Source: Dyella amyloliquefaciens
GTDB taxonomy: Bacteria; Pseudomonadota; Gammaproteobacteria; Xanthomonadales; Rhodanobacteraceae
Assembly: GCF_004296575.1 (NCBI RefSeq)
Contig: NZ_SAYT01000005.1
Coordinates: 434,001 to 498,000 of the forward strand
DNA: 64,000 nucleotides
Reading direction: 5' to 3'
Numbering within the stretch: the stretch's first letter is position 1; each line of letters begins with the position of its first letter. Both the position numbers and the translations under genes were made by a program. The notes beneath the pieces were generated by a model. It was not told the origin of the DNA, ran no database searches, and saw only the letters and a list, made by a program, of their open reading frames with translations. This document shows positions 611-54,845 of the stretch, piece after piece.

Positions 611-1863
611 CGTCCCGGATTCGCTTGATCACGCAAGAACCGCTGCACGCGGCGGCGCGTGCCGAGGAAAGCGGCCGCCACTCCTCCCCATGCAACGCAC
701 TGAAGCAACCCCGCCGCACGGGCAATCCACGCCGCGGGATACAGCGTCGCCAGTACGACCATCGTGCCGGCAACAGCCAGGGCGATAGCCACCGCACCAC
801 GCTCTCTTGCGGGCATCAGGCGCTGCACGCCGGGCAACTGAACACCTCGACCAACACGCCGGTGAAGTTCGATCCAGCCCAGGAAGGCGACGATTTCCAG
901 TGCCATGCCGGTCACCAGCAAGGGCAACGCCACACCCAGCGCAAGCGCTGCCGCAAGCAAGGGCGCGTGGCTTTGCCATGGCAGCGCCAGCACCGATGCC
1001 ATCAACGCGAATGCAGCCCCTCGCCAGCTCCACCACAGGGGGCCGCGACGTGCCTGGGTCGTGCGCATCTGCAGCCAGGCCACCGTGAGTGCGAACGACA
1101 TGCCGAAGAGCGCCAGCGTCGCCGGCAAGCCCGTTTCGTTCATGCCGGACAGACGCAGGGCTGCGGCAATCGGCAAAAGCACCACCACACTGCCGAGCCA
1201 GGCCGCATGCCACTTCACCGGCGGCACGCCGGTGCCCTGAAACATCGGCATGACCACGCGCCCCACGCTGGCCAGCAGCAGCACGACCCAACCGAGCACT
1301 CCGAACGATGCATGGACATCCACCCACTTCGGCATGGCCAACGACAACCGGCCGCTGCCGCAAAGTGCCAGAGCGCCGCCAACCAAGGCCGTTGCCAGTC
1401 CGTAAACGAGCGATGCGCCGACGCCCATTCGCAGCAGCCGTTGCCCGGCGGAGCGACACACCGCGGGCAGGATGATGCCGGCCATGGCCAGGAATGCCAG
1501 CGGCAACAGCAGCCCCCCCAGCGTCAGCAGCACGGACGAGCCGAGATAGAAGCCGCACACGAGTGACAATGCACCCGCGTTCAATGCGACGTGCACCCAG
1601 GCGCCCAGCCGCTCACCGCGAAGCGGAACCCCGGCGGCGGCCGGCAGGAACTGCAGCAGGCTGCCGAACATGGCATTGCCGAGCACGCCCAGGGTGATGG
1701 TATGCACCAAAGCCAGCGTGCCAGGATGCCAACGCGATCGCAGCAAGCTGTCGCCATCGATCACCAGCAGCAGGCCTGCCAGCACGCCCCAGATCGGCAT
1801 GGAGCACAGGAACCGACGCGGAAGCGAAACGATCGGCGCCTGGTCAAGCGCCAGCCGGGCCAT
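607..1863 (-). CDS. NnrS-like polytopic membrane protein
   Basis: A 418-aa protein with about 12 hydrophobic segments. The early segment LALVHTITLGVLGNAMFGSLLQFLP and later His-containing helices (ASFGVLGWVV, VVMPMFQGTGVPP) resemble the NnrS family and the related quinol/heme-copper-oxidase-like membrane proteins found in denitrifiers. NnrS contains heme and copper and is linked to relief of nitrosative stress. Here the role is inferred from the neighbours: DUF2249 upstream, with the start 20 bp inside that gene, and a DGC protein downstream. It could also be a paralogous family without bound metal. I could not align it to decide. Confidence 0.6.
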   Translation of the reverse strand: MARLALDQAPIVSLPRRFLCSMPIWGVLAGLLLVIDGDSLLRSRWHPGTLALVHTITLGVLGNAMFGSLLQFLPAAAGVPLRGERLGAWVHVALNAGALSLVCGFYLGSSVLLTLGGLLLPLAFLAMAGIILPAVCRSAGQRLLRMGVGASLVYGLATALVGGALALCGSGRLSLAMPKWVDVHASFGVLGWVVLLLASVGRVVMPMFQGTGVPPVKWHAAWLGSVVVLLPIAAALRLSGMNETGLPATLALFGMSFALTVAWLQMRTTQARRGPLWWSWRGAAFALMASVLALPWQSHAPLLAAALALGVALPLLVTGMALEIVAFLGWIELHRRVGRGVQLPGVQRLMPARERGAVAIALAVAGTMVVLATLYPAAWIARAAGLLQCVAWGGVAAAFLGTRRRVQRFLRDQANPGR

Positions 1864-2149
1864 GACCGGTCGCAGCCCCGTGCGGAATGCAACGAATGAT
1901 CACTTTCGCGCCGCCCCCGGAAAGCGTGATCGCCTGTGCCTGCAAGCCACGCTCGGCCAACGCTGACAGCAACGGCATCGGCATCAGCGGGGTCAGGACT
2001 TCCAGCACCTGACCCGGTGCCAATCGGTCTGCTGCCGCCAATGCCTGCTGCATCGGCTCCGGCGGTTGCAGGGAGCGAAGATCGAGCAAGGCCGTAGCCG
2101 CAGCAGTTCCCGAGCCACGGCATACGCAGGTATGAGTAGACGTATTCAT
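1844..2149 (-). CDS. DUF2249 domain protein, first gene of the operon
   Basis: A 101-aa protein whose core (LDLRSLQPPEPMQQALAAAD, then LEVLTPLMPMPLLSALAERG) matches DUF2249, a small TusA-like fold common in denitrification and NO-response loci. It has Cys8 and Cys10 near the N-terminus. No Shine-Dalgarno sequence stands in front of the ATG at 2149. An FNR-type palindrome is centred 41.5 bp upstream of this ATG, so the transcript may start at or very near the start codon. A TTG at codon 21, just before LLDLR, is a possible alternative start. It heads the chain DUF2249, NnrS-like, DGC, chorismate mutase. Confidence 0.7.
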   Translation of the reverse strand: MNTSTHTCVCRGSGTAAATALLDLRSLQPPEPMQQALAAADRLAPGQVLEVLTPLMPMPLLSALAERGLQAQAITLSGGGAKVIIRCIPHGAATGHGPAGA

Positions 2150-2176
2150 GCCGTCATTTCATCGAATCTGCCGCGG

Positions 2177-2204
2177 CGATGCGCTGACCTGAGTCAGCGC
2201 ATCG
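2177..2204 (-). promoter_or_regulatory. FNR-family operator in a 28-bp perfect palindrome
   Basis: The core is CTGAC-CTGA-GTCAG at 2184-2197. The symmetry continues outwards to give 12-bp perfect arms around a 4-bp spacer (2177-2204). The centre at 2190.5 is 41.5 bp from the ATG of the DUF2249 gene at 2149, the class II activator distance if transcription begins at the ATG. The half-sites keep the TGA/TCA of FNR boxes but have C/G where FNR has T/A. The same core recurs upstream of the porin gene, nirK and hemN. Confidence 0.65.
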
Positions 2205-2241
2205 ATGAAGCCGTCACCCGGGACGGGCAACTACGGCTTCG

Positions 2242-3474
2242 TTACAGCGGCTGCTTGCCCTGCCATTCCAGTTGCAGCCAGACCTTGGTGTCATCGTGCG
2301 CGTAATGATCGGCATTGTAGCTGGCGACCTTCACCAGTCCGGTCAACCCCGGCACCAGCGGGAACGACAGCGACGCATTCCACTCGTCGCCGTAATGCAT
2401 GCTGCCCTTGTCGGCGTGGTAATCGTGATAGGCCACGACCCAGCCGAGCTTGCTTGCCCAGCCCTGCTTGCCGAGATTGCCGTTGAGGGATACGTAGTAG
2501 TCCTCGAGGCCGTTCACCGGCGTCACGGTGAACTGGTCATCCCAGCCGTTGAAGGCGTGCAGCGTGGCCAGCGGCGTCTGCAGTGCGGTGTGGCCATCGC
2601 CACCCAGATGTTCCCAGGCCAGCTTGCCCGTGACACCCCACTGCGTCCACGCAGGCTCCAGCAGCCAGTAGCTGTGGCTGAAGTTCTGCGGATTGTTCGC
2701 GTAGTCGTACTGGCGTGCGCCTTCCACTGCCCAGCTGAATCCGCCCTCCGGTGACGGCTTGCCGACCCAGCGCGCACCGTAAGTCGCGGTGGAGGCCGTG
2801 GCGACGTCCTTGTCCTTGTGCAGATACGCGTAACCCGACACCTGCTGGCTGCCATGGGACCAGGCGGCGTTGAACAGATGCGTGTTGAGCAAACGGTTGC
2901 GGGCCAGTGGATTGAGCGCATCCGGCCCGGCCACGCGGTTCACGCGATCGAGCCAGTCGTAGCGCAAAGTCCAATTCGCAGCCGGCTTCCATTGCATGCT
3001 GACGGCGTCGAAGGTCTGCTCGAACTGCCGCCAGGCCACGTTGCCTACCCAGCGCTGGTTGTCGAGCACGATCTCCTGTCGACCGACCTTGGCACCGAAG
3101 TCGCTGCCCTGCCACGCCAGCCAGGCCTGGTTGAGTTCGGTGCCATGCGGATCGGTGATGCCCGGATACTGCGTCTGACCATTCGCCCCGCTGTTGTAAT
3201 GATCGTTGGCGCTCGCTACGCCCGCACCCTCGATGAAACCACTCCAGCCGCTACCAAAATTGGCGTGCAGACCCAGGCGAAGCCGCAAGGTATTCGCCTG
3301 TGCATCGTGGTGGAATGCGTCATCGTCAACCTGCTCATGACGAAGTCGCGCATTCCATTCCACTTGCAGCGGCGTTGATGCGTCCGTGCCCGACTGGGCA
3401 TTCGCTGCGAAAGAAACACCAAGCATGGCCAAACCACATGCTGCCAATGAACGACGATGGCATGCCCTTTTCAT
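2242..3474 (-). CDS. Alginate-export family outer-membrane porin
   Basis: A 410-aa protein with a signal peptide (ends near AANA-QS, residue 26) followed by alternating, aromatic-rich beta strands. Segments such as VEWNARLRHEQVDDD, NQAWLAWQGSDFGAKVGRQEIVLDNQRWVG and the TLRYDWLDRVNR region are typical of the alginate_exp (AlgE-like) 18-strand barrel family. The substrate cannot be read from sequence. Homologues often lie beside nir genes in this bacterial group, which suggests anion or nitrite passage across the outer membrane; that is inference. It lies downstream of sco but has its own FNR-type box, so it is likely a separate, co-regulated unit. The last residue before the stop is Leu, not the aromatic residue often seen in barrels. 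Confidence 0.75.
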   Translation of the reverse strand: MKRACHRRSLAACGLAMLGVSFAANAQSGTDASTPLQVEWNARLRHEQVDDDAFHHDAQANTLRLRLGLHANFGSGWSGFIEGAGVASANDHYNSGANGQTQYPGITDPHGTELNQAWLAWQGSDFGAKVGRQEIVLDNQRWVGNVAWRQFEQTFDAVSMQWKPAANWTLRYDWLDRVNRVAGPDALNPLARNRLLNTHLFNAAWSHGSQQVSGYAYLHKDKDVATASTATYGARWVGKPSPEGGFSWAVEGARQYDYANNPQNFSHSYWLLEPAWTQWGVTGKLAWEHLGGDGHTALQTPLATLHAFNGWDDQFTVTPVNGLEDYYVSLNGNLGKQGWASKLGWVVAYHDYHADKGSMHYGDEWNASLSFPLVPGLTGLVKVASYNADHYAHDDTKVWLQLEWQGKQPL

Positions 3475-3810
3475 CCAACTACTCCTGTCGAGCTACTCCC
3501 CATTGAGTGAAGCTAGTCTCGACAGGTATGCGGCGATCCGGCCTGACCGTCGTCAATTCGATGGCGCATGGAGAGTTAATGTGACAACGCGCCGCGTCAA
3601 AAGCAGAAGCACGGATGACTCTTCGCGCTGAAAGCGCGCTAGTCGCACATTCACTATCGCCATAGGGACGAAAACGACTGCAGCGAACGACACTACGTTG
3701 GTGCCTGAGATGATGTATCCCACGCATGCTTCTTAGGAGCGATGGACGAGCACCACCCGCCCCTTCGCACCAAGGCAAAAAGTGATTCGTGCGTGACCGG
3801 CCAGCGAAGG
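3475..3810. other. Intergenic region upstream of the porin gene
   Basis: This stretch of about 336 bp carries the porin promoter with its FNR-type box (3543-3556). Between box and gene lie 9-bp inverted repeat arms, CCTGTCGAG (3484-3492) and CTCGACAGG (3518-3526), that could be an operator or a leader hairpin. A small GC-rich hairpin without a T-run sits near 3630-3646, downstream of sco. I see no convincing gene in it. Confidence 0.5.
3543..3556 (-). promoter_or_regulatory. FNR-family box upstream of the porin gene
   Basis: On the plus strand it reads CTGAC-CGTC-GTCAA, i.e. TTGAC-N4-GTCAG on the coding strand, identical in half-sites to the box in front of nirK. The centre is 75.5 bp upstream of the porin ATG. 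With class II spacing, transcription would start near 3508, leaving a 34-nt leader. No clear -10 hexamer could be recognised. Confidence 0.6.
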
Positions 3811-4374
3811 CTAAGGTGCGCTAAGCGTCTTCTTCACCACCTGCACGAACTCGGGATCGAGGCGCCCGATGACGGTGGTACGCGCCACGATGCGCCCTTC
3901 TTCGTCCAGCAACAGGAGTTCGCTGGAGTGATTGAAGTCGCCGTCCGGCAGAGGGCGATATTGGACGCCAAGCAATGCCGCGAGTTGACGGGTAGGCGCC
4001 GGTTCGGCGCGGGCCAGCGTCCAGCGTGGCGCTTCAAGCTTGCGCCGCTCGGCGTATTGGTTGAGCACCGCCACGCTGTCGCGCGCGGGATCGAAACTGA
4101 TCAGCAGGAGATCCACCCGGTCGCGGTCAGGCTCGTCCACCGCCTTCTGGGTCAGCTTCAGCGTGTCCACGATCATCGGGCATACCATCGTGCACGACGA
4201 ATAGAACATCGATACCAGCTGCACGTGGCCACGACGCGACGCCAACGGCCACGTCTTGCCGGCCTGGTCGGTCAGCTTGACGTCCAGCTGGTAGATCGAA
4301 TCCCTGGGCAACGGTGTCGTTGCCTGAGCCGCACTGCATAACACCAGGCATAGCAACACGAGCAGCCGCTTCAT
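3811..4374 (-). CDS. SCO1/SenC-family copper chaperone
   Basis: A 187-aa protein with an N-terminal signal sequence (cleavage near AQA-T, about residue 18) and a thioredoxin-like SCO fold. The copper ligands are visible: C61-TMV-C65 in the FYSSCTMVCP motif and the distal His149 in FNHSSE. SCO proteins deliver copper to, or reduce, metal sites of exported cuproenzymes, classically the CuA site of oxidases. Here the gene starts 10 bp after the nirV stop and is the third gene of nirK-nirV-sco, so delivery of copper to NirK in the periplasm is the likely job (inference). Confidence 0.88.
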   Translation of the reverse strand: MKRLLVLLCLVLCSAAQATTPLPRDSIYQLDVKLTDQAGKTWPLASRRGHVQLVSMFYSSCTMVCPMIVDTLKLTQKAVDEPDRDRVDLLLISFDPARDSVAVLNQYAERRKLEAPRWTLARAEPAPTRQLAALLGVQYRPLPDGDFNHSSELLLLDEEGRIVARTTVIGRLDPEFVQVVKKTLSAP

Positions 4375-4384
4375 CGATCATTCC

Positions 4385-5146
4385 TCAGTCGGACTTCGCA
4401 CAACGAAAGCCAAGATTGGTGGTGGTATTGGATGCCTTGAGCGAGGACAACATGGCCACGCGCATCAGCGTGGCGTAGTTTTCCTTCTCCTGCATGTTGA
4501 GCGCACCGGCGCCACAGAACTTGAATTTGTCCGCGCCATCCTGGTCACGGCTGTCGCTGCCCACCAGCAGCGCATTGAAGTCGTCGACCCATTCCCATAC
4601 GACGCCATTGAGGTCGCGCACGCCATGCACGTCGGCGGGTCCGCCGATCTCCGGCAGCGGCGCATTCGATGGACGGCTGTACCAGACCAGCACACGCTCG
4701 CGCCAGGCGGGATCTTTGCGGGCATCGGCGCGCTGGCCATCGGCTGCGGCCGCGTACTCCCACTCGTACCAGGTGGGAAGGCGTGCCTGCTCGCTCTCGC
4801 AATACGCCTCCGCCGCAAACCAGCTGACGCGTGTAACGGGCTGCGAAGGCGATATCGCCGCTCCCAGCGCATCATTGCCGGCCCACTGAGATAGATATCC
4901 TGCGTCGGCAAACAATGCCGGCACACGATCACGTTGCCACTCGGGACGCTTCTGCGTGAACGCCAGGAACTCGGCATTGGTCACCGGCTCGATGCGCAAA
5001 CGGAACGGCGCAATACGCGCCGGCGCCACCTTGCCATCCGCCGGGAGCACGCTGGAAAAGCTGCCTCCCGGCAAGGCGACATAGTCTGCCGCCGCTGCCG
5101 GGAGGGCTAGCAGCAGGCCGGAAAGGATCACGGCCAGCTGTTTCAT
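4385..5146 (-). CDS. nirV: NirV-like formylglycine-generating-enzyme (SUMF1) family protein
   Basis: A 253-aa protein with a signal peptide (MKQLAVILSGLLLALPAAAA). The rest is the SUMF1/FGE-sulfatase fold: PVTNAEFLAF, PVTRVSWFAAEAYC, LPTWYEWEYAA, LNGVVWEWVDDF and the terminal LGFRC. The ATG at 5146 is chosen because the signal peptide begins there and the codon overlaps the nirK stop region; 12 further codons upstream look non-coding. Genes of this family directly behind nirK are called nirV. Mutant data elsewhere have been inconclusive, and a role in NirK maturation is only presumed. I did not establish whether the two FGE catalytic cysteines are kept. Confidence 0.85.
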   Translation of the reverse strand: MKQLAVILSGLLLALPAAAADYVALPGGSFSSVLPADGKVAPARIAPFRLRIEPVTNAEFLAFTQKRPEWQRDRVPALFADAGYLSQWAGNDALGAAISPSQPVTRVSWFAAEAYCESEQARLPTWYEWEYAAAADGQRADARKDPAWRERVLVWYSRPSNAPLPEIGGPADVHGVRDLNGVVWEWVDDFNALLVGSDSRDQDGADKFKFCGAGALNMQEKENYATLMRVAMLSSLKASNTTTNLGFRCAKSD

Positions 5147-5147
5147 C

Positions 5148-6653
5148 TCAGTGCCCCGTGGCTGCCGGTGCCGGCGTGGCACGTACCTTGGACACTTCCT
5201 CCTTGCTCACCTGTCCACCCGGGTTGTCCCAGCTGTTCAGCACATAGGTGAGGATGTTCGCCACTTCGTCGTCCGTCAGCTGGCTCATCGGCGGCATCAC
5301 GGAGTCGTATTCCTTGCCGTTGACGGTGACCTTGCCGGTCAGGCCGTGCAGCGGGATGCCGATCAGATGGTCCTTGTCCTGCTTTGCCAGATAGTCCGAC
5401 TTGGCAAGCGGCGGGAACACGCCCGAAAGACCTTCACCATTGGCCTGGTGACAGACCGAGCAGGTGCCGGTGAACAGCTGCTTGCCCGCGGCGATCTGGT
5501 CGTCCTTGCTCAGCGTGCCGGAGGCATTGGCCTTGGCGGCCGCGGCCACAGCGTGCAGGTTGGGATTGGCGCGATCACCCAGGTACACCGAGTCCACCTC
5601 CTTGCCGGAGTAGATCGCCTTGTTCTCGGGACCGTCCACCTTGAGGATGCCCAGTGCGCCCTTGTTGAAGGCACGGAAGATCGAATGGTCGACCAGCACG
5701 TAGCTGCCCGGCACGTCGACATGGAACTCCGCCATCATCGCGCCACCGGCGGGAATCAGCGTGGTCTGCACGTTTTCCTGTGCGTGCGTGCCGCCTTCGT
5801 AATAGACCTTGTCGAAGATCTCGCCGATCACGTGGAAGCTCGACACCAGGTTCGGGCCGCCGTTGCCCACGAACAGGCGCACCGAGTCACCCACCTTGGC
5901 GGTCAGCGCATGGTCGCCGGTGAGCGAACCCTCGTGACCGTTGAACAGCACGTAGGTCGGACGCTCCTCGATGGCCTTGTCCATGTCGAACGGCTGGTGA
6001 CCCTTCTCGCGGTACTTACCCGTGGTGTAGAAGTCACCCTGCATGACGTAGTACTCATGATCCACCTTCGGCAGACCTGCCGGTGGCTCGACCAGGATCA
6101 GGCCATACATGCCATTCGCGACGTGCATGCCCACCGGTGCGGTGGCGCAGTGGTACACGTAGAGGCCGGCGTTGAGCGCCTTGAAGGTGAACTGGCTTTC
6201 ATGACCCGGCGCGGTAAAGCTCGACGCCGCACCGCCGCCCGGACCGGTGACGCCGTGCAGGTCGATGTTGTGCGGCATCTTGTTGTCGGGCGAGTTCTTC
6301 AGATGGAACTCCACCGTGTCGCCCTGGCGTACGCGGATGAAGCTGCCTGGCACGGTGCCGCCGAAGGTCCAGTAGGTGTAGGTGACACCCTCGGAAATCT
6401 GCATTTCCTTCTCGATCACTTCGAGATCGACGATTACCTTGGCAGGGGTCTTGCGATTGATCGGCGGTGGCACATTCGGCGGAATGCCGAGCACCGCGTG
6501 AATAGGTTCACCTTGTGGCGGTCCGAAATCTATCGGCGCCGCAAGAGGCGCCGGACTGGCCGCGGCAACTACGGCCAGTGGTGCCTTGCCGGCGAGTACG
6601 GCCCCGGGCAGCAAGCCAGCGGCGATGAGTACAGTGGCTAACAATCGTGACAT
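5148..6653 (-). CDS. nirK: Copper nitrite reductase NirK with C-terminal cytochrome c domain
   Basis: A 501-aa protein from the ATG at 6653, with AGGGAGA just upstream; a longer frame starting at 6680 lacks a signal-like start. It has a signal peptide, then two cupredoxin domains with type 1 and type 2 copper ligands ([40 protein letters not shown]). After a linker, a class I cytochrome c domain carries CSVCH near residue 397 and a distal MPPM. It reduces nitrite to NO in the periplasm; the fused heme is presumed to be the electron entry point. The heme-fused form is longer than the usual 340-380 aa NirK. It is first in nirK-nirV-sco and has an FNR-type box in its promoter. Confidence 0.96.
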
Positions 6654-6679
6654 GGGTTTCTCCCTTGATTCCCAACTCA

Positions 6680-6720
6680 AGCCTAGGCAGCGTCATGAAT
6701 CTCCGCTTGACTGATGTCAG
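6680..6720 (-). promoter_or_regulatory. nirK promoter with FNR-family box
   Basis: The box TTGAC-TGAT-GTCAG lies at 6707-6720 (centre 6713.5). A weak -10 (TAGGCT on the minus strand, 6685-6680) fits a start near 6672, which puts the box at -41.5. The leader is about 20 nt and includes the AGGGAGA ribosome-binding site. The nearby sequence TTGATTCCCAACTCAA (6665-6680) looks similar to an FNR site but has the wrong spacing. Confidence 0.6.
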
Positions 6721-6769
6721 AGACGGCGAAGCGCATGACCAAATGCGTCAACCTGCCACGGCGTTTCCT

Positions 6770-7531
6770 TTAGTTCGCACACTCGTCGCGAGCCATATCG
6801 CGAAGCGCTTTTCGATCGAGCAACGTGACGGATCGCCCGTTGATGTCGATGAGTTTCTGACTGCGAAAGCGCCCCAGCACGCGACTCACCGTTTCGGCGG
6901 CAAGGCGCAGGTAGTTCGCAATGTCGCCGCGTGCCATGCTCAGTCGAAACTGCGTTCCCGAAAAACCTCGCGCCTGATAGCGATCGCCCAGGTCCAGCAG
7001 AAATGCGGCCATGCGTTCGTCCGCGGTGTGGTCGGCAGCGAGCAGCGTCGCTGTGCCAAGCTCCTTGCTCAGCAGGCGGAACAGGTGCTGTTGCAAGGCT
7101 GGCATGCGCGACGCCAGCGCACTCATGGCGGGGAACGAGAAGCGACAGAATTGGGCCGCTTCCAAGGCCACCGCGTCGCAGGGAAACTGGTCCGGATAGA
7201 TCGCGTTGAGGCCAATCACTTCGCCCGGCAGGTAAAAACCCAGCACCTGTTCGCGGCCATCCTTGTCGACCACACAGGTCTTCACCGTGCCGGCGCGCAC
7301 CGCATAGATCGCGCGGAACGGGTCACCCGTTCGAAATACATGCGCCCCCGTGCGATACGGCCCCACGTGTTCGACCAGGCAATGGAGTGCGGACAGCTCA
7401 GGCTTGCCGTAACCCACCGACAGGCAGGCATCGGAGAAGGCACAGGTACTGCAGAAATGGACCTCGTCACCATCATCCGCAATGGGATTGCACGGATGGA
7501 GCGTGCAGTCGATGGACTTCCCGGAAAGCAT
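6770..7531 (-). CDS. fnr: FNR-type oxygen-sensing transcription regulator
   Basis: A 253-aa Crp/Fnr family protein. The N-terminus has C27-x2-C30-x5-C36 and the central Cys129, the same four-cysteine pattern that binds the [4Fe-4S] cluster in E. coli FNR. A cNMP-type beta-roll (residues ~50-130), a dimer helix and a helix-turn-helix follow (RGDIANYLRLAAETVSRVLG). Recognition residues E213, S216 and R217 match E. coli FNR E209/S212/R213, so binding to TTGAT-N4-ATCAA is expected. It follows hemN by 28 bp in the same direction, with AGGGGG upstream of its ATG, so the pair is probably one operon. It is a candidate activator of the cbb3 and nir promoters in this window. Confidence 0.92.
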   Translation of the reverse strand: MLSGKSIDCTLHPCNPIADDGDEVHFCSTCAFSDACLSVGYGKPELSALHCLVEHVGPYRTGAHVFRTGDPFRAIYAVRAGTVKTCVVDKDGREQVLGFYLPGEVIGLNAIYPDQFPCDAVALEAAQFCRFSFPAMSALASRMPALQQHLFRLLSKELGTATLLAADHTADERMAAFLLDLGDRYQARGFSGTQFRLSMARGDIANYLRLAAETVSRVLGRFRSQKLIDINGRSVTLLDRKALRDMARDECAN

Positions 7532-7559
7532 GTTCAGCCCCCTAGCTGGGTCTCATCCG

Positions 7560-8960
7560 TCAGATCGTGCGCGAGTAGCGGGACGTTTCTGCCGGGTTAT
7601 TGAGGTACGCGTCGAAGTTCATCGCGATGTTGCGCAAGAGCAGACGTCCGCGCGCAGTGATTCGGATCGTCGCGTCATCCACTTCCACCAGGCCGTCGGA
7701 CGCTTGCTCGCGCAGTCGATCCAGCTCCATGGTGAAGCGGTCGGAAAAATCCAGTTGATGGTGCTCGCCGAAGCCGCGCATATCGAGTTCACCGTGGCAC
7801 ATCAGCTCACTGATCACGGCGCGGCGGATGAGATCGTCGCCACTTAGCGAAATGCCACGTGCCACCGGCAGGCGCCCCGCCTTGATGGCGGCTTCGTAAC
7901 CGATGAGGTCGCGCGCACTCTGGCTGTAACTGTCACCAATGCGACTGATGGCGCTGACGCCGAGTCCGATGATGTCGCAGTCGCCGTGGGTTGAATAACC
8001 CTGGAAGTTGCGCTGCAACGTGCGACTGCGTTGTGCACGCACCAGTTCGTCGTTGGCGCGCGCGAAATGATCCATGCCCACGTAGACATAACCCGCATCG
8101 CACAGGCGCTTGAAGGCGCGGCCGAACAGCGCCAGTCGCGTGGCGGGATCGGGCAGTTCATTGGCGTCGATCTGCTGCTGCGCCTTGAACAGCTTGGGCA
8201 GATGGGCGTAGCCATAGACGGCGATACGATCCGGAGCGAGACCGAGCACTTCGTCCAGGGTGCGGTCGAAGCCATCGAGGGTCTGACGCGGGAGCCCGTA
8301 GATGAGATCCACGCTCACTGAGCCATAGCCCGAGGCGCGCGCCGCATCCAGCACTTCGCGTGTCTGTTCCACGCTCTGGATGCGGTTGACGGCTTTCTGC
8401 ACGGCCGGATCGAAATCCTGAATACCCACCGAGATGCGGTTGAAGCCCAGCGTGGCCAGTTCCGTGATGTAGCGGCCGTCGGCGAAGCGCGGGTCGATCT
8501 CGATGCCGTACTCCCGCTCCCCTTGGCGGCGATAGTCGAAATGCCGCTCCAGCGTTTCGATCACCGCTGTCATGCGCGGCAGGTCGAGGTAGTTCGGCGT
8601 GCCGCCACCGAAATGGAGCTGCTTCAGCGGCCGGTCGCGATCGAACATCGGCCCCGCCATGGCGATCTCCTGGAACAGCAGCTCCAGGTAGTGGTCCGCC
8701 TTGGCGATATCGCGCGTGATGACGCGCATGCAGCCGCAGTAGAAGCAAGGGCTGAAGCAGAAGGGCACGTGTACGTAGACCGACAACGGCCGTGGCACGA
8801 GGTCTTCGTTGGAGGCCTGCGCCGCCGCCCGCAGGGCGGCTTCATCGAACCCGGTATGGAACTGCGGTGCCGTCGGATAGCTGGTGTAACGCGGTCCGGC
8901 GACGTCGTACCGGGCGATGAGGGTGGCGTCGAATTCGGGAACGATGGTATCGGTGCGCAT
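7560..8960 (-). CDS. hemN: Oxygen-independent coproporphyrinogen III dehydrogenase HemN
   Basis: A 466-aa radical SAM enzyme converting coproporphyrinogen III to protoporphyrinogen IX without oxygen. The cluster-binding motif is C68-x3-C72-x2-C75 with a further Cys77, as in E. coli HemN. RYDVAGPRYTSYPTA near the N-terminus and the GGGTP and EIDPR motifs are typical. Length matches the family (about 455-460 aa). It provides heme under low oxygen for cytochromes such as the NirK heme domain and the cbb3 oxidase. No Shine-Dalgarno sequence is visible before the ATG at 8960, and an FNR-type box lies 42.5 bp upstream, suggesting a leaderless transcript. fnr follows. Confidence 0.95.
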   Translation of the reverse strand: MRTDTIVPEFDATLIARYDVAGPRYTSYPTAPQFHTGFDEAALRAAAQASNEDLVPRPLSVYVHVPFCFSPCFYCGCMRVITRDIAKADHYLELLFQEIAMAGPMFDRDRPLKQLHFGGGTPNYLDLPRMTAVIETLERHFDYRRQGEREYGIEIDPRFADGRYITELATLGFNRISVGIQDFDPAVQKAVNRIQSVEQTREVLDAARASGYGSVSVDLIYGLPRQTLDGFDRTLDEVLGLAPDRIAVYGYAHLPKLFKAQQQIDANELPDPATRLALFGRAFKRLCDAGYVYVGMDHFARANDELVRAQRSRTLQRNFQGYSTHGDCDIIGLGVSAISRIGDSYSQSARDLIGYEAAIKAGRLPVARGISLSGDDLIRRAVISELMCHGELDMRGFGEHHQLDFSDRFTMELDRLREQASDGLVEVDDATIRITARGRLLLRNIAMNFDAYLNNPAETSRYSRTI

Positions 8961-8967
8961 GGGCGGC

Positions 8968-9009
8968 AGTATCGAACCGCCCCTGCGAGACTCATCTGAC
9001 GCCAGTCAG
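8968..9009 (-). promoter_or_regulatory. hemN promoter with FNR-family box
   Basis: The box CTGAC-GCCA-GTCAG (8996-9009) is a perfect palindrome centred at 9002.5. A -10-like GATACT (minus strand, 8973-8968) places the start at about 8960-8961, i.e. at the ATG, with the box near -41.5/-42.5. Box, -10 and start codon are therefore all consistent with a leaderless mRNA. The rest of the 123-bp gap up to the FAH-family gene shows nothing else. Confidence 0.6.
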
Positions 9010-9083
9010 GCGCCTGCGACATTTAGTGTAGGTTTCCGGCGCAAATCCCTGTGGTAAAGCGCCGCAGGTCACACCCATGTCGC

Positions 9084-10070
9084 TTAGCGCTTCTGCGGCG
9101 CGATCACCTGTTCGATGGAGCCGAAGATCGAGGCGCCGGACGCGTCGGTGACATCGATGCGCAGGCTGTCGCCAAACTTCAGGAACGGCGTGCTGGGCTT
9201 GCCGTCACGCAGGGTTTCCACCGTGCGCTGCTCAGCCAGGCACGACGCCCCCTTGCCGGTGTCTTCGTTGGCGATGGTGCCCGAGCCGACGATGGTGCCG
9301 GCGGTCAGCGGACGGGTCTTGGCGGCATGCGCCACCAGCTGTGCGAAGTTGAACTGCATGTCCACGCCGCACTCGGCCTCGCCGAACCACTGGCCGTTGA
9401 GCCAGGTGCGCATGGGCAGGTGCAGCTTCTCGTCCTGCCAGTCGTCGCCCAGTTCGTCCGGCGTCACGAACACCGGCGACAGCGCCGAGCGCGGCTTGGA
9501 CTGCAGGAAGCCGAAGCCCTTGGCGAGTTCGGCGGGAATCAGGCCACGCAGCGACACGTCGTTGACCAGGCCCACCAGCTGGATATGGCCCGCCGCCTGC
9601 GCCGGCGTCACCGCCATCGGCACGTCGTCGGTGACCACCACCACTTCGGCTTCGAGGTCGATGCCGTAGTCCTCGCTGGGCACCACCACCGGGTCGCGGG
9701 GGCCCAGGAAGCCGGCGCTGGTGGCCTGGTACATCAGCGGATCGACGTAGAAGGATTCCGGCACCTCGGCGCCGCGGGCGCGACGCACGCGCTCCACGTG
9801 AGGCAGATAGGCGCTGCCGTCGACGAACTCGTAGGCACGCGGCAGCGGCGACGCCATCGCGGTGACGTCCAGCGCGAACGCATCGGCGGCCTTGCCTGCG
9901 TTGAGATCGTCCGACAGCGCATTCAGGCGCGGCGCCACGTTGGACCAGTCGTCCAGGGCGGCCTGCAGGGTGGCGGCAATGCCCGTGGCCTTCACGGCCT
10001 TGGCCAGGTCGCGGCTGACAACGATGAGCGTACCGTCGCGGCCGCCTTCCTTCAGGGAACCCAGTTTCAT
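9084..10070 (-). CDS. Fumarylacetoacetate hydrolase family protein (tyrosine degradation)
   Basis: A 328-aa protein from the ATG at 10070, preceded by GGAGCAAAAC; 35 codons of upstream open frame look non-coding. It has an N-terminal extension (MKLGSLKEGGRDGTLIVVSRD) and a FAH catalytic domain with DYGIDLEAEVVVVTDDVP, NDVSLR and GTIVGSGTI, where the acidic residues bind Mg2+/Ca2+. It is expected to split 4-fumarylacetoacetate into fumarate and acetoacetate, the last step of homogentisate degradation. Position directly after hmgA supports this over other FAH-superfamily hydrolases. Being about 330 aa, it is shorter than the ~420-aa eukaryotic-type fumarylacetoacetase. Confidence 0.88.
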   Translation of the reverse strand: MKLGSLKEGGRDGTLIVVSRDLAKAVKATGIAATLQAALDDWSNVAPRLNALSDDLNAGKAADAFALDVTAMASPLPRAYEFVDGSAYLPHVERVRRARGAEVPESFYVDPLMYQATSAGFLGPRDPVVVPSEDYGIDLEAEVVVVTDDVPMAVTPAQAAGHIQLVGLVNDVSLRGLIPAELAKGFGFLQSKPRSALSPVFVTPDELGDDWQDEKLHLPMRTWLNGQWFGEAECGVDMQFNFAQLVAHAAKTRPLTAGTIVGSGTIANEDTGKGASCLAEQRTVETLRDGKPSTPFLKFGDSLRIDVTDASGASIFGSIEQVIAPQKR

Positions 10071-13850: not shown

Positions 13851-15359
13851 TTACTTCACCCCGTGCATCAACCGGTTGATCAGCGGCGCGATCAGGAACA
13901 ACAGCACACCCGCCCCGGCCAGCAGCCAGAAGCTGAAGGTGAAGCCGCTCAGCGCGGAGGCGACGGTCATGCCGGTTTCGCCGCTGACGTGGCCGGCGAA
14001 GATGCCCGAAAGGTTGTTGCCGATCCCGGTGGAGAGGAACCAGCCGCCCATGGCGAAGCCCACCAGGCGCACCGGCGCCAGCTTGGTCACCATCGACAGG
14101 CCGATCGGCGACAGACACAGCTCGCCAAGGGTCTGCAGTACGTAGACCAGTACCAGCGGCCAGAACGGGATCAGGTTGCGGCTATCGACCAGGCTGGACA
14201 GCGCGTACATCAGCACCACGAAGGCCAGCGCATTGCCGAGCAGGCCCAGGCCGAACTTTCGCGGGATCGAAGGCTCCATGTTGCGCTTGTCCAGCCAGCC
14301 CCAGGCGATGGACACGAACGGCGCCAGCAGCACCAGCGCCAACGGCGCGACCGACTGGAACCAGCCCACCGGGAATTCCCAGCCGCCGAACATCTTGCGG
14401 TCGACGATGTTCTGCGCGAGGAAGTTGAACGAGCTGCCCGCCTGTTCGTAGAACATCCAGAACAGCACGTTGAACACGAAGATGATCAGCATCGCGATCA
14501 CGCGGTTGCGCTGCACCTTGCCCTCGCGGATGCCTTCCACCAGCAGCAGCGCGGACAGACCCACGAACAGCACGCTGAGCATCCACTGCAGCACCACGGC
14601 GCCGGCCTTCGCCATCACCAGGTAGACCAGCGGGATGGCAAGCACGCAACCGATGAACACGTAGAGCACGCGCATGCGGTTGGCCTGGTCCGCCGTCGGG
14701 CGACCCACGCCCTTGAGCTGGCGACGGCCGACCCAGAACCAGAACAGGCTGATCAGCATGCCGATGCCCGATGCCAGGAACACCAGCTTGTAGTTCTGCT
14801 GCATCGGCGTGTCGGTGAAATAGCTCGCCATCCAGCCGGTGATCAGCGGCGAGAACAGTGCACCCGCGTTGATGCCCATGTAGAACAGGGTGAAGCCGCG
14901 GTCGCGGCGCGCGTCACTCACGCCGTAGAGCTGGCCCACCATCGAAGAGATGTTCGGCTTGAACAGGCCATTGCCGACGATCACGGTGGACAGGCCGAGC
15001 AGGAAGATGTCCTGGTTCGGCACCATGATCAGGAACAGGCCGGCCGACATCACGATGGCGCCGACCAGGATCGAGCGCTGGTAGCCAATGATGCGGTCGG
15101 CGACATAGCCGCCGAACACCGCCGCCGCATAGACCAGCGCCAGATAGGCGCCATAGGTGCGGCTGGCGAAGCCCTGCCCCGACGGATCGTTGTTGAAGAA
15201 CTCCGCCACGATGTACAGCGTGAGCGCCCAGCGCATGCCGTAGAAGGCGAAGCGCTCCCAGAACTCCGTCATGAACAGCATCCACAACGGACGCGGATGC
15301 CCCATGGTCTGCGGGTAATCGGGTACCGACGGCGCGGTGGTCGTGGTGGCGTGGGTCAT
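13851..15359 (-). CDS. POT/PTR-family proton-dependent oligopeptide transporter
   Basis: A 502-aa inner-membrane protein from the ATG at 15359 with AGGGGAACGC upstream; about 30 upstream codons in frame look non-coding. The family signature is clear: the proton-coupling ExxERF in FMTEFWERFAFYG, the GGYVADRIIGYQRSI motif between early helices, and FKPNISSMVGQLYG. About 14 membrane segments are expected. It imports di- and tripeptides with protons. It is a tandem paralogue of the next gene, with near-identical N-terminal blocks (PQTMGHPRPLWMLFMTEFW). Confidence 0.93.
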   Translation of the reverse strand: MTHATTTTAPSVPDYPQTMGHPRPLWMLFMTEFWERFAFYGMRWALTLYIVAEFFNNDPSGQGFASRTYGAYLALVYAAAVFGGYVADRIIGYQRSILVGAIVMSAGLFLIMVPNQDIFLLGLSTVIVGNGLFKPNISSMVGQLYGVSDARRDRGFTLFYMGINAGALFSPLITGWMASYFTDTPMQQNYKLVFLASGIGMLISLFWFWVGRRQLKGVGRPTADQANRMRVLYVFIGCVLAIPLVYLVMAKAGAVVLQWMLSVLFVGLSALLLVEGIREGKVQRNRVIAMLIIFVFNVLFWMFYEQAGSSFNFLAQNIVDRKMFGGWEFPVGWFQSVAPLALVLLAPFVSIAWGWLDKRNMEPSIPRKFGLGLLGNALAFVVLMYALSSLVDSRNLIPFWPLVLVYVLQTLGELCLSPIGLSMVTKLAPVRLVGFAMGGWFLSTGIGNNLSGIFAGHVSGETGMTVASALSGFTFSFWLLAGAGVLLFLIAPLINRLMHGVK

Positions 15360-15513
15360 GCGTTCCCCTGTTGGGTGTGGTCGGCACGTCGCGTGCGGAC
15401 CGGTTGAAGCGGACGGGGAGATGTAACCGGCCAGCGCCGAATCCGTCAAATGCACCGCAGCATATTGCGAATCTGATAAGGCGCCACGGAAACCTGCCGT
15501 GGCGCCCCTTCAT

Positions 15514-17022
15514 TCAACGCACGCCGTGCATCAAGCGATTGATCAACGGCGAGATCAGCAACAACAGCACGCCTGCGCCCGCCAGCAGCCAGAAGCTGAA
15601 GGTGAAACCAGCCAGTGCCGAGGCGGCGGTCATGCCACTCTCGCCGCTGATCTGGCCCGCCAGCAGGCCGGAAAGATTGCCGCCCACCGCCATCGACAGG
15701 AACCAGCCGCCCATCGCCACGCCCACCAGGCGCGGCGGCGCCAGCTTGGTCACCATCGACAGGCCGATCGGCGACAGACAGAGCTCGCCGACAGTCTGCA
15801 GCACGTAGCAGGCGGTCAGCGGCCAGAACGGGATCAGGCCGCGGCTGTCGATCGAATAGGTCAGCGCATACATCAGCGCGGTGAAGCCCAGGCCGTTGAA
15901 GACCAGGCCGAAACCGAACTTGCGCGGAATCGACGGTTCCTTGTGGCGACGCGCGAGGAACGACCACACCTGAGTCACCACCGGTGCCAGCACGATGATC
16001 GCCACCGGGCTCACCGACTGGAACCAGCCCACCGGGAACTCCCAGCCGCCGAACATCTGGCGATCGACCATGTTGGCCGCCAGGAAGTTGAACGAGGTGC
16101 CGAGCTGGAAGTACATCATCCAGAACAGGACGTTGAAGGCGAAGATGATCAGCATCGCGATCACGCGTTCCAGCTGCACGCGGTCGTGGCGAATCGCCTC
16201 CACGATCAGCATGGCGGCCACGCCGACGAACAGCAGGCTCAACAGCCACTGCAGGCCGTTCGCGCCGATGAAAGCCAGCAGCAGGTAGACCAGCGGCACC
16301 GCCACCGCCACGCCCACCAGCACCCACACCACGCGCATGCGGCTGGCTGCTTCCGGCGCGGGACGGCCCACGTTCTTCAGGCCGCGACGACCGAACCAGA
16401 ACCAGAACAGGCTCAGCGCCATGCCCACGCCCGCGGCGCCGAACACGATGCGGTAGTTCTCCTGCGTCGGCGTGTCGGTGAAGTGGCTGGCGAGCCAGCC
16501 GGTCAGCAGCGGCGCCAGCAGCGCTCCGCCATTGATGCCCATGTAGAACAACGTGAAGCCGCGATCCCGACGTTCGTCCTTGGAACCATAGAGCTGGCCG
16601 ACCATCGAGGAGATGTTCGGTTTGAACAGGCCATTGCCGACCACGACCATCGCCAGGCCGAACAGGAAGATCTCCTTGCCTGGCAGCATCACCACGAACA
16701 GGCCCACGGCCATCACCAGCGCACCGATCAGGATCGAGCGCTGGTAACCGATCACCTTGTCGGCCACGTAGCCGCCGAAGATGCTGGTGGCGTAGATCAG
16801 CGCAGTGTACGCGCCGTAGATCTTGCTGGCCCAGGCCTCACCGGCCGGGTCGCCGTTGAAGAAGTGCGCCACGATGTACAGCGCCAGCGCCCAGCTCACG
16901 CTGTAGAACGCGAAACGCTCCCAGAACTCCGTCATGAACAGCATCCACAGCGGACGCGGATGCCCCATCGTCTGCGGGAAATCAGGCGCGGACGCGGGTG
17001 CGGTCTCGGCTGTGTGGCTCAT
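15514..17022 (-). CDS. POT/PTR-family oligopeptide transporter, tandem paralogue
   Basis: A 502-aa protein of the same length and architecture as its downstream neighbour: ExxERF in TEFWERFAFYS, GGYVADKVIGYQRSI and FKPNISSMVGQLYG. It differs mainly in loops and in helices 5-9, so the duplication is not recent. AAGGGGCATGC precedes the ATG. The two genes are separated by about 150 bp with no terminator-like T-run, so they could be co-transcribed. Confidence 0.93.
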   Translation of the reverse strand: MSHTAETAPASAPDFPQTMGHPRPLWMLFMTEFWERFAFYSVSWALALYIVAHFFNGDPAGEAWASKIYGAYTALIYATSIFGGYVADKVIGYQRSILIGALVMAVGLFVVMLPGKEIFLFGLAMVVVGNGLFKPNISSMVGQLYGSKDERRDRGFTLFYMGINGGALLAPLLTGWLASHFTDTPTQENYRIVFGAAGVGMALSLFWFWFGRRGLKNVGRPAPEAASRMRVVWVLVGVAVAVPLVYLLLAFIGANGLQWLLSLLFVGVAAMLIVEAIRHDRVQLERVIAMLIIFAFNVLFWMMYFQLGTSFNFLAANMVDRQMFGGWEFPVGWFQSVSPVAIIVLAPVVTQVWSFLARRHKEPSIPRKFGFGLVFNGLGFTALMYALTYSIDSRGLIPFWPLTACYVLQTVGELCLSPIGLSMVTKLAPPRLVGVAMGGWFLSMAVGGNLSGLLAGQISGESGMTAASALAGFTFSFWLLAGAGVLLLLISPLINRLMHGVR

Positions 17023-54831: not shown

Positions 54832-54845
54832 TTGATCCAGATCAA
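54832..54845 (-). promoter_or_regulatory. Canonical FNR box upstream of ccoN
   Basis: TTGAT-CCAG-ATCAA, a perfect FNR palindrome. Its centre is 69.5 bp upstream of the ccoN ATG at 54769. With class II spacing transcription would begin near 54797, giving a 28-nt leader. The -10 is weak (CAGACT), as is common for activator-dependent promoters. Confidence 0.88.

Follow-up and report, generated by a model that had tools for sequence, protein, structure and literature searches.

What reads the four palindromic boxes that precede genes of the nitrite reductase block in Dyella amyloliquefaciens? The block lies in a 64-kb stretch of contig NZ_SAYT01000005.1 (positions 434,001 to 498,000), which as a whole we call the window. 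It holds genes for a DGC-domain protein, a 418-residue protein, a DUF2249 protein, a porin, SCO1, a protein with an FGE-sulfatase domain, the nitrite reductase NirK, an FNR-type regulator, and HemN. The original prediction was that four promoters share the core TGAC-N4-GTCA, and that the changed fifth base of the half-site marks a distinct specificity, for example that of a DNR- or NnrR-type regulator responding to nitric oxide (NO). The boxes are real sites of a known kind, and a distinct specificity is unsupported. Judged from sequence comparison, they are very probably ordinary FNR/ANR-type operators of the form YTGAY-N4-RTCAR, at which an oxygen-sensing FNR would activate transcription in the class II manner. 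TGAC would then be no code of its own.

A pattern scan of the window finds TGACNNNNGTCA exactly four times (2185-2196, 3544-3555, 6708-6719 and 8997-9008) and nowhere else, as had been predicted. The boxes, with the sequences YTGACNNNNGTCAR, and the genes behind them are as follows.

2184..2197, minus strand: FNR-type box 1, centre 41.5 bp 5' of the DUF2249 ATG (2149)
3543..3556, minus strand: FNR-type box of the porin gene, centre 75.5 bp 5' of the ATG at 3474
6707..6720, minus strand: FNR-type box of nirK, centre 60.5 bp 5' of the ATG at 6653
8996..9009, minus strand: FNR-type box of hemN-fnr, centre 42.5 bp 5' of the ATG at 8960
1844..2149, minus strand: DUF2249 gene, first gene after box 1, followed by the genes of the 418-residue protein and of the DGC-domain protein
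2242..3474, minus strand: porin-like gene, Alginate_exp family
5148..6653, minus strand: nirK, copper nitrite reductase with a C-terminal cytochrome c domain, by profile search (scanned as 5148-6680)
6770..7531, minus strand: FNR/ANR-type regulator gene, between nirK and hemN
7560..8960, minus strand: hemN, oxygen-independent coproporphyrinogen III oxidase (TIGR00538), upstream of fnr

The TGA/TCA core and its four-base spacer are exact in all four boxes, which deviate from the strict TTGAT-N4-ATCAA at the first and fifth bases. The outermost base pairs of boxes 1-4 are C..G, C..A, T..G and C..G; T or C is thus outermost in each half-site, as claimed. The expectation of about one such core against four found, each in a promoter gap, also holds. 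Dinucleotide shuffles of the window give a mean of 0.86 copies, with four or more in 3 of 100. None of the boxes lies inside a gene called by our own simple gene caller, and all are in gaps 5' of minus-strand genes. Over the 4.83 Mb of the genome, TGAC-N4-GTCA occurs 56 times versus 31 for the reversed control, and YTGAC-N4-GTCAR 21 times versus 8. At the genomic site rate, four sites in 6.8 kb have a Poisson p of about 1.5e-6 per stretch, or roughly 1e-3 genome-wide. The clustering is therefore real.

The boxes are conserved. We compared 32 genomes, namely the window genome (G000) and those of 31 chosen from 80 nirK loci. The remaining 49 loci, which include Dokdonella, several metagenome-assembled genomes of Rhodanobacteraceae, beta-proteobacteria and a second Dyella silvae nirK (L034), were left out, and the family is incompletely sampled. 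Only the bare core TGA-N6-TCA was counted, 130 to 10 bp 5' of seven genes, with the fifth base unconstrained. Of 127 promoters, 121 contain it (nirK 31/32, norB 16/16, nosZ 7/7, porin 17/19, DUF2249 5/6, hemN 17/17, ccoN 28/30), where shuffles give a mean of 1.6 and a maximum of 6. This count omits 13 diverged norB loci (below 60% identity), eight nosZ of a 45-53% clade and one norB locus that was too short (L170); no ccoN locus came from G012 or G030, and of the 30 ccoN loci counted, L155 and L156 are of the second ccoN type. Across all 80 nirK loci, the region from 350 bp upstream to 30 bp downstream of the nirK start contains one or more sites with no more than one mismatch in 72, and 57 have the bare core 10-130 bp upstream. 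The window NirK shares 96% identity with the Dyella jiangningensis protein. The four boxes are most likely FNR-type operators on this evidence.

A second line of evidence is promoter geometry. Over 120 promoters, hexamers carrying A as second and T as sixth base begin 22 nt after the box in 58% of cases and 21 nt after it in 29%. At other offsets from 8 to 37 nt such hexamers reach at most 12%. Three of the window promoters have such an element.

3515..3520, minus strand: -10-like hexamer GAGACT of the porin gene, 22 nt after the box
6680..6685, minus strand: -10-like hexamer TAGGCT of nirK, 21 nt after the box
8968..8973, minus strand: -10-like hexamer GATACT of hemN, 22 nt after the box

At class II FNR promoters the site is centred at -41.5. 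The phasing of 21-22 nt fits this geometry, with the transcription starts as predicted from the hexamers. Consensus sigma-70 promoters are absent from 1800-9200, where shuffles give 1.5, a result that favours neither side. Because GATACT ends seven bases 5' of the hemN ATG, transcription of hemN may begin at the start codon or right beside it, which suggests a leaderless or nearly leaderless message. The layout around this hexamer and the hemN ATG (8960-8973) is similar in several relatives.

The fifth base was the basis for proposing a distinct specificity. The 242 half-sites from 121 promoters have 151 C and 91 T there and no purine. C makes up 62% of C plus T at this position, versus 63% over all of the upstream DNA. 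From these counts, the fifth base is nearly always a pyrimidine, and C or T occurs about as composition would predict. An influence of genome GC content on the C share was considered and dropped; local GC over the 32 genomes shows no correlation with it (rho -0.04). Orthologous boxes also exchange the base. T in one or both halves is common in the nirK, norB and porin boxes, and the nirK box reads CTGACATCAGTCAA in the window, CTGACATTGATCAA in D. solisilvae (L029) and TTGATTTTGATCAA in D. japonica (L031). On a tree of NirK proteins, of which only 11 of 29 inner branches are well supported, the CC, TT and mixed states require at least 10 changes over 31 tips. Their clustering is barely above that of shuffled labels, which score as low in 51 of 200 cases. 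The predicted box form in these Dyella relatives is YTGAY-N4-RTCAR, with a purine only rarely at the fifth base. Since C or T there mostly follows base composition, TGAC would not be a separate code, and since related bacteria exchange the base freely, the unusual base does not point to a new regulator. The claim of a distinct specificity thus fails on the orthologous swaps, the tree and the background C share.

Other boxes in the same genome lead to the same place. The contexts of all 21 YTGAC-N4-GTCAR sites were inspected, together with 5 of 25 YTGAT-N4-ATCAR and 6 of 33 mixed sites. With the home-made gene caller, 9 of the 21 lie inside genes and 12 outside. Seven of these 12 precede norB (162.5 bp upstream), a U32-type gene that is presumably ubiU, DUF2249, the porin gene, nirK, hemN-fnr and nosZ. 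The other five are near or before genes without an evident link, one of them between converging genes. The original prediction is supported in so far as the boxes look like real FNR-family operators marking nitrogen-oxide and anaerobic genes. The fifth base is changed consistently in the four boxes, but other FNR-type boxes of the genome carry T. The azurin-like gene has a box with T in both halves, CTGATCCAGATCAG, the first ccoN has one T/T box and two mixed ones, and mixed boxes with T in one half precede a true, distinct nnrS and the second DUF2249 gene elsewhere in the genome, whose FNR-type box is at 68.5 bp. A canonical site is also present.

54832..54845, minus strand: canonical FNR box TTGATCCAGATCAA, 69.5 bp 5' of the second ccoN (minus strand)

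The T form is therefore in use in the same genome. Strict TTGAT-N4-ATCAA occurs at only two sites there. Among the inspected YTGAT-N4-ATCAR sites, one is inside ccoN and one is 5' of an acyltransferase-like gene; one of the six mixed sites is inside a called gene. The norB gene (L107, 7664-7833) has two boxes, 162.5 and 61.5 bp 5' of its ATG, and the second ends in T (TTGACTTGCGTCAT).

Six Crp/Fnr proteins score above the Pfam cut-off for the helix-turn-helix, and their recognition helices were read by eye; three weaker helix-turn-helix matches, below the census, were followed as reading frames only. Three of the six are FNR-like, each with CxxC-x5-C, a central cysteine and the helix residues E-T-V-S-R. 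They are the window protein and two others.

C11:287735-288415: second FNR gene, near a ccoN operon
C10:275667-276335: third FNR gene

The E and R of the FNR helix read TGA. One further protein is Clp/CRP, and two are CRP/NtcA-like, with CSRP(V/I)LN and without the E-xx-SR residues. The window FNR has the domains PF00027, PF13545 and PF00325. Its cysteines (CSTC-AFSDA-C and FCRF) align with those of FNR chains of solved structures, and its helix ETVSR matches ETISR there, with E, S and R conserved. It matches FNR chains at 1e-52 and the DNR chain 3dkw at 8e-11. The third FNR is also closest to FNR among solved structures, and one CRP/NtcA-like protein (L019) is closest to CRP/NtcA-type chains (DNR 2e-8); for the second FNR (L016) and the other CRP/NtcA-like protein (L021) the comparison was with NCBIfam only. 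None of the six is DNR- or NnrR-like, so that the proposed paralogue census yields three FNR-like proteins and not the expected NO regulator. An FNR homologue with at least 60% identity is found in all 32 genomes. The second FNR gene is convergent with a ccoN operon and a copper-ATPase-like gene, the latter named by eye (L109 5663-12331, contig 11). Three FNR-type boxes precede the ccoN of this region, at about -180, -112 and -60.

As its gene lies beside nirK and follows hemN and the hemN box, the window FNR is the simplest candidate reader and would feed back on its own expression. We infer binding, oxygen sensing, activation and the acting paralogue as follows. An oxygen-sensing FNR with a [4Fe-4S] cluster would bind the boxes; this would most simply be the product of 6770-7531, possibly alongside the two paralogues. 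From a position at about -41.5, the bound protein would recruit RNA polymerase to the -10 element 21-22 nt downstream. A fall in oxygen would then switch on nirK, the porin gene, the DUF2249 operon and hemN-fnr, and activation of hemN-fnr would close a feedback loop through a presumed autoregulation of fnr.

Several observations weigh against this assignment. The core is missing from six of the 127 promoters (nirK 1, ccoN 2, porin 2, DUF2249 1), and the promoter counts are not independent because the genomes are related. Within 300 bp, none of the eight diverged nosZ promoters and only 5 of the 13 diverged norB have a site; in three of these five, one fifth base is a purine. The second nirK of Dyella silvae likewise lacks a box. 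Over all 80 nirK loci, the fifth base is a purine in 2 of 57 nirK boxes (L050 and L104), and a purine is also found in the box of a second, diverged norB of G000, G001 and G002. No good -10 hexamer follows box 1, and the box is part of a perfect palindrome whose arms are 12 bases long, about 45 bp past the porin stop (2242). The window FNR scores 205.4 bits on the NCBIfam Fnr model, whose cut-off is 228, and this is still its best family; because of this score we use "FNR/ANR-type" broadly. All eight half-sites of the window have C, for which p is 0.023 at a C share of 62% and 0.065 at 71%. Finally, nitrogen-oxide promoters carry 135 C and 55 T versus 58 C and 64 T at ccoN/hemN promoters (71% versus 48% C, odds ratio 2.7, p = 4e-5), in an all-site count that contains duplicates and relatives: several sites per promoter, the second nosZ of G001 (L202) and one ccoN of G019 twice (L151 and L178). 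With unique sites counted once per gene, the numbers are 78/32 versus 39/31 (odds ratio 1.9, p = 0.054). The C share is higher at nitrogen-oxide promoters in 22 of 30 genomes, lower in six and equal in two. What is left is a slight surplus of C at nitrogen-oxide promoters; inspected by eye, it shows no pattern with possession of a second FNR.

Known systems help in weighing these points. The classical FNR/ANR box, TTGAT-N4-ATCAA, has the same TGA-N6-TCA core, four-base spacer and phased -10 fitting about -41.5, and likewise precedes hemN, cbb3 oxidase and denitrification genes. The window-type boxes differ in being relaxed at the first and fifth bases (mostly YTGAY). FixK proteins are not known to carry the iron-sulfur cysteines that the window protein has. 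The FixK-type box TTGA-N6-TCAA (PMC5582078) leaves the fifth base in the free part of its consensus. The Anr-dependent katAp2 promoter of Pseudomonas aeruginosa has the Anr box TTGac-N4-gtCAA (PMC4974557), with C at the fifth base in both halves as in the window, but this promoter drives a catalase gene and its box is centred at -29. In two cyanobacteria, HcpR sites TTGACnnnnGTCAA have the same core sequence as the window boxes, but HcpR belongs to another Crp/Fnr subfamily and such sites are found there only 5' of hcp and norB (PMC1274295). For the gonococcal nitrite reductase gene aniA, the FNR site TTGACTTAAATTAA has support from chromatin immunoprecipitation (PMC1802743). A literature search joining Rhodanobacter, nirK, FNR and promoter found nothing; among the titles listed by a looser search none concerns this box, and Dyella by name was not covered.

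Would a separate, NO-responsive DNR- or NnrR-type Crp/Fnr regulator, reading TGAC-N4-GTCA and controlling nitrogen-oxide genes only, explain the boxes better? The C in all eight window half-sites and the C-rich nitrogen-oxide promoters, significant over all sites and seen in 22 of 30 genomes, would suit it. DNR and NnrR boxes share denitrification and hemN targets with the window boxes; DNR sites precede hemN in Burkholderia (PMC1274295). The bias falls to p = 0.054 on unique sites, however, and T-bearing orthologous nirK, norB and porin boxes are common, because of which we regard a strict second code as incompatible. hemN and the U32-type gene have C boxes, yet they are not nitrogen-oxide genes. 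The six Crp/Fnr proteins above the helix-turn-helix cut-off, read by eye, include no such regulator: the three FNR proteins share one helix, one protein is CRP/Clp, and the two CRP/NtcA-like ones lack E-xx-SR. The NnrR consensus ctTTGcgnnnncgCAAag does not fit the boxes, and DNR reads an ordinary FNR box, CTTGATnnnnATCAAG (PMC1274295). We consider such a regulator very unlikely. A milder version, also improbable though less so, would be a graded code inside one box family, without a new regulator: the fifth base may tune the affinity or the choice between FNR paralogues, the C-rich nitrogen-oxide boxes being weaker or preferred by the nirK-linked FNR. If this were true, denitrification genes would come on at lower oxygen than the cbb3 oxidase, whose boxes carry more T. 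That the boxes arose by chance in GC-rich DNA is hardly credible. About one palindrome is expected per 64 kb, and 9 of the 21 genomic YTGAC-N4-GTCAR sites are intragenic, but the core is conserved in 121 of 127 orthologous promoters and followed by a phased -10.

Two narrower doubts accept FNR-type control for most of the block. The main reader in vivo may be the second or third FNR; all three proteins have the four cysteines and E-T-V-S-R, and in G005, G020 and G030 the best FNR is only 60-64% identical to the window protein while nirK is boxed. We think this possible but doubtful, given that 29 of 32 genomes match the window FNR at 74% identity or more (in G014 in two pieces) and that 17 of the 31 nirK loci chosen contain an fnr of at least 60% identity, 15 together with hemN (some loci are incomplete). 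It is unlikely, somewhat more so than a different paralogue, that box 1 is mainly a hairpin behind the porin gene or the palindrome of another regulator. Its long arms are largely kept in the Dyella relatives L027, L028 and L029, which with the missing -10 element would fit such a role. A terminator-like site was searched for there and none was found; moreover, the core is present within 130 bp 5' of DUF2249 in five of six genomes, and the second DUF2249 gene is boxed as well. As to its layout, box 1 forms the middle of the palindrome 2177-2204, CGATGCGCTGAC-CTGA-GTCAGCGCATCG, which may be a hairpin or a second operator.

With FNR/ANR-type operators as the preferred reading, YTGAY-N4-RTCAR can serve to predict the anaerobic regulon in Dyella, Frateuria and Rhodanobacter. 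The case also calls for caution: a base change is no proof of new specificity where orthologous sites exchange it freely.

Some further genes have boxes or neighbourhoods worth recording. An FNR-type box is found 63.5 bp 5' of a FabA-family gene (L108, 2727-3312), as though anaerobic fatty-acid synthesis shared this control. A 102-residue protein with no Pfam match (L107, 14823-15201) also has one 63.5 bp upstream. The 418-residue membrane-type protein downstream of DUF2249 (607-1863) has no Pfam or NCBIfam match. NnrS was considered for it and dropped, since no family matched and the comparison with the true NnrS of contig 11 gave E 1.1. It stays beside DUF2249 or the porin gene in several relatives. 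A tandem pair of transporter-like proteins (534 and 502 residues), similar to each other and by eye of the POT family, is encoded at 13851-17022.

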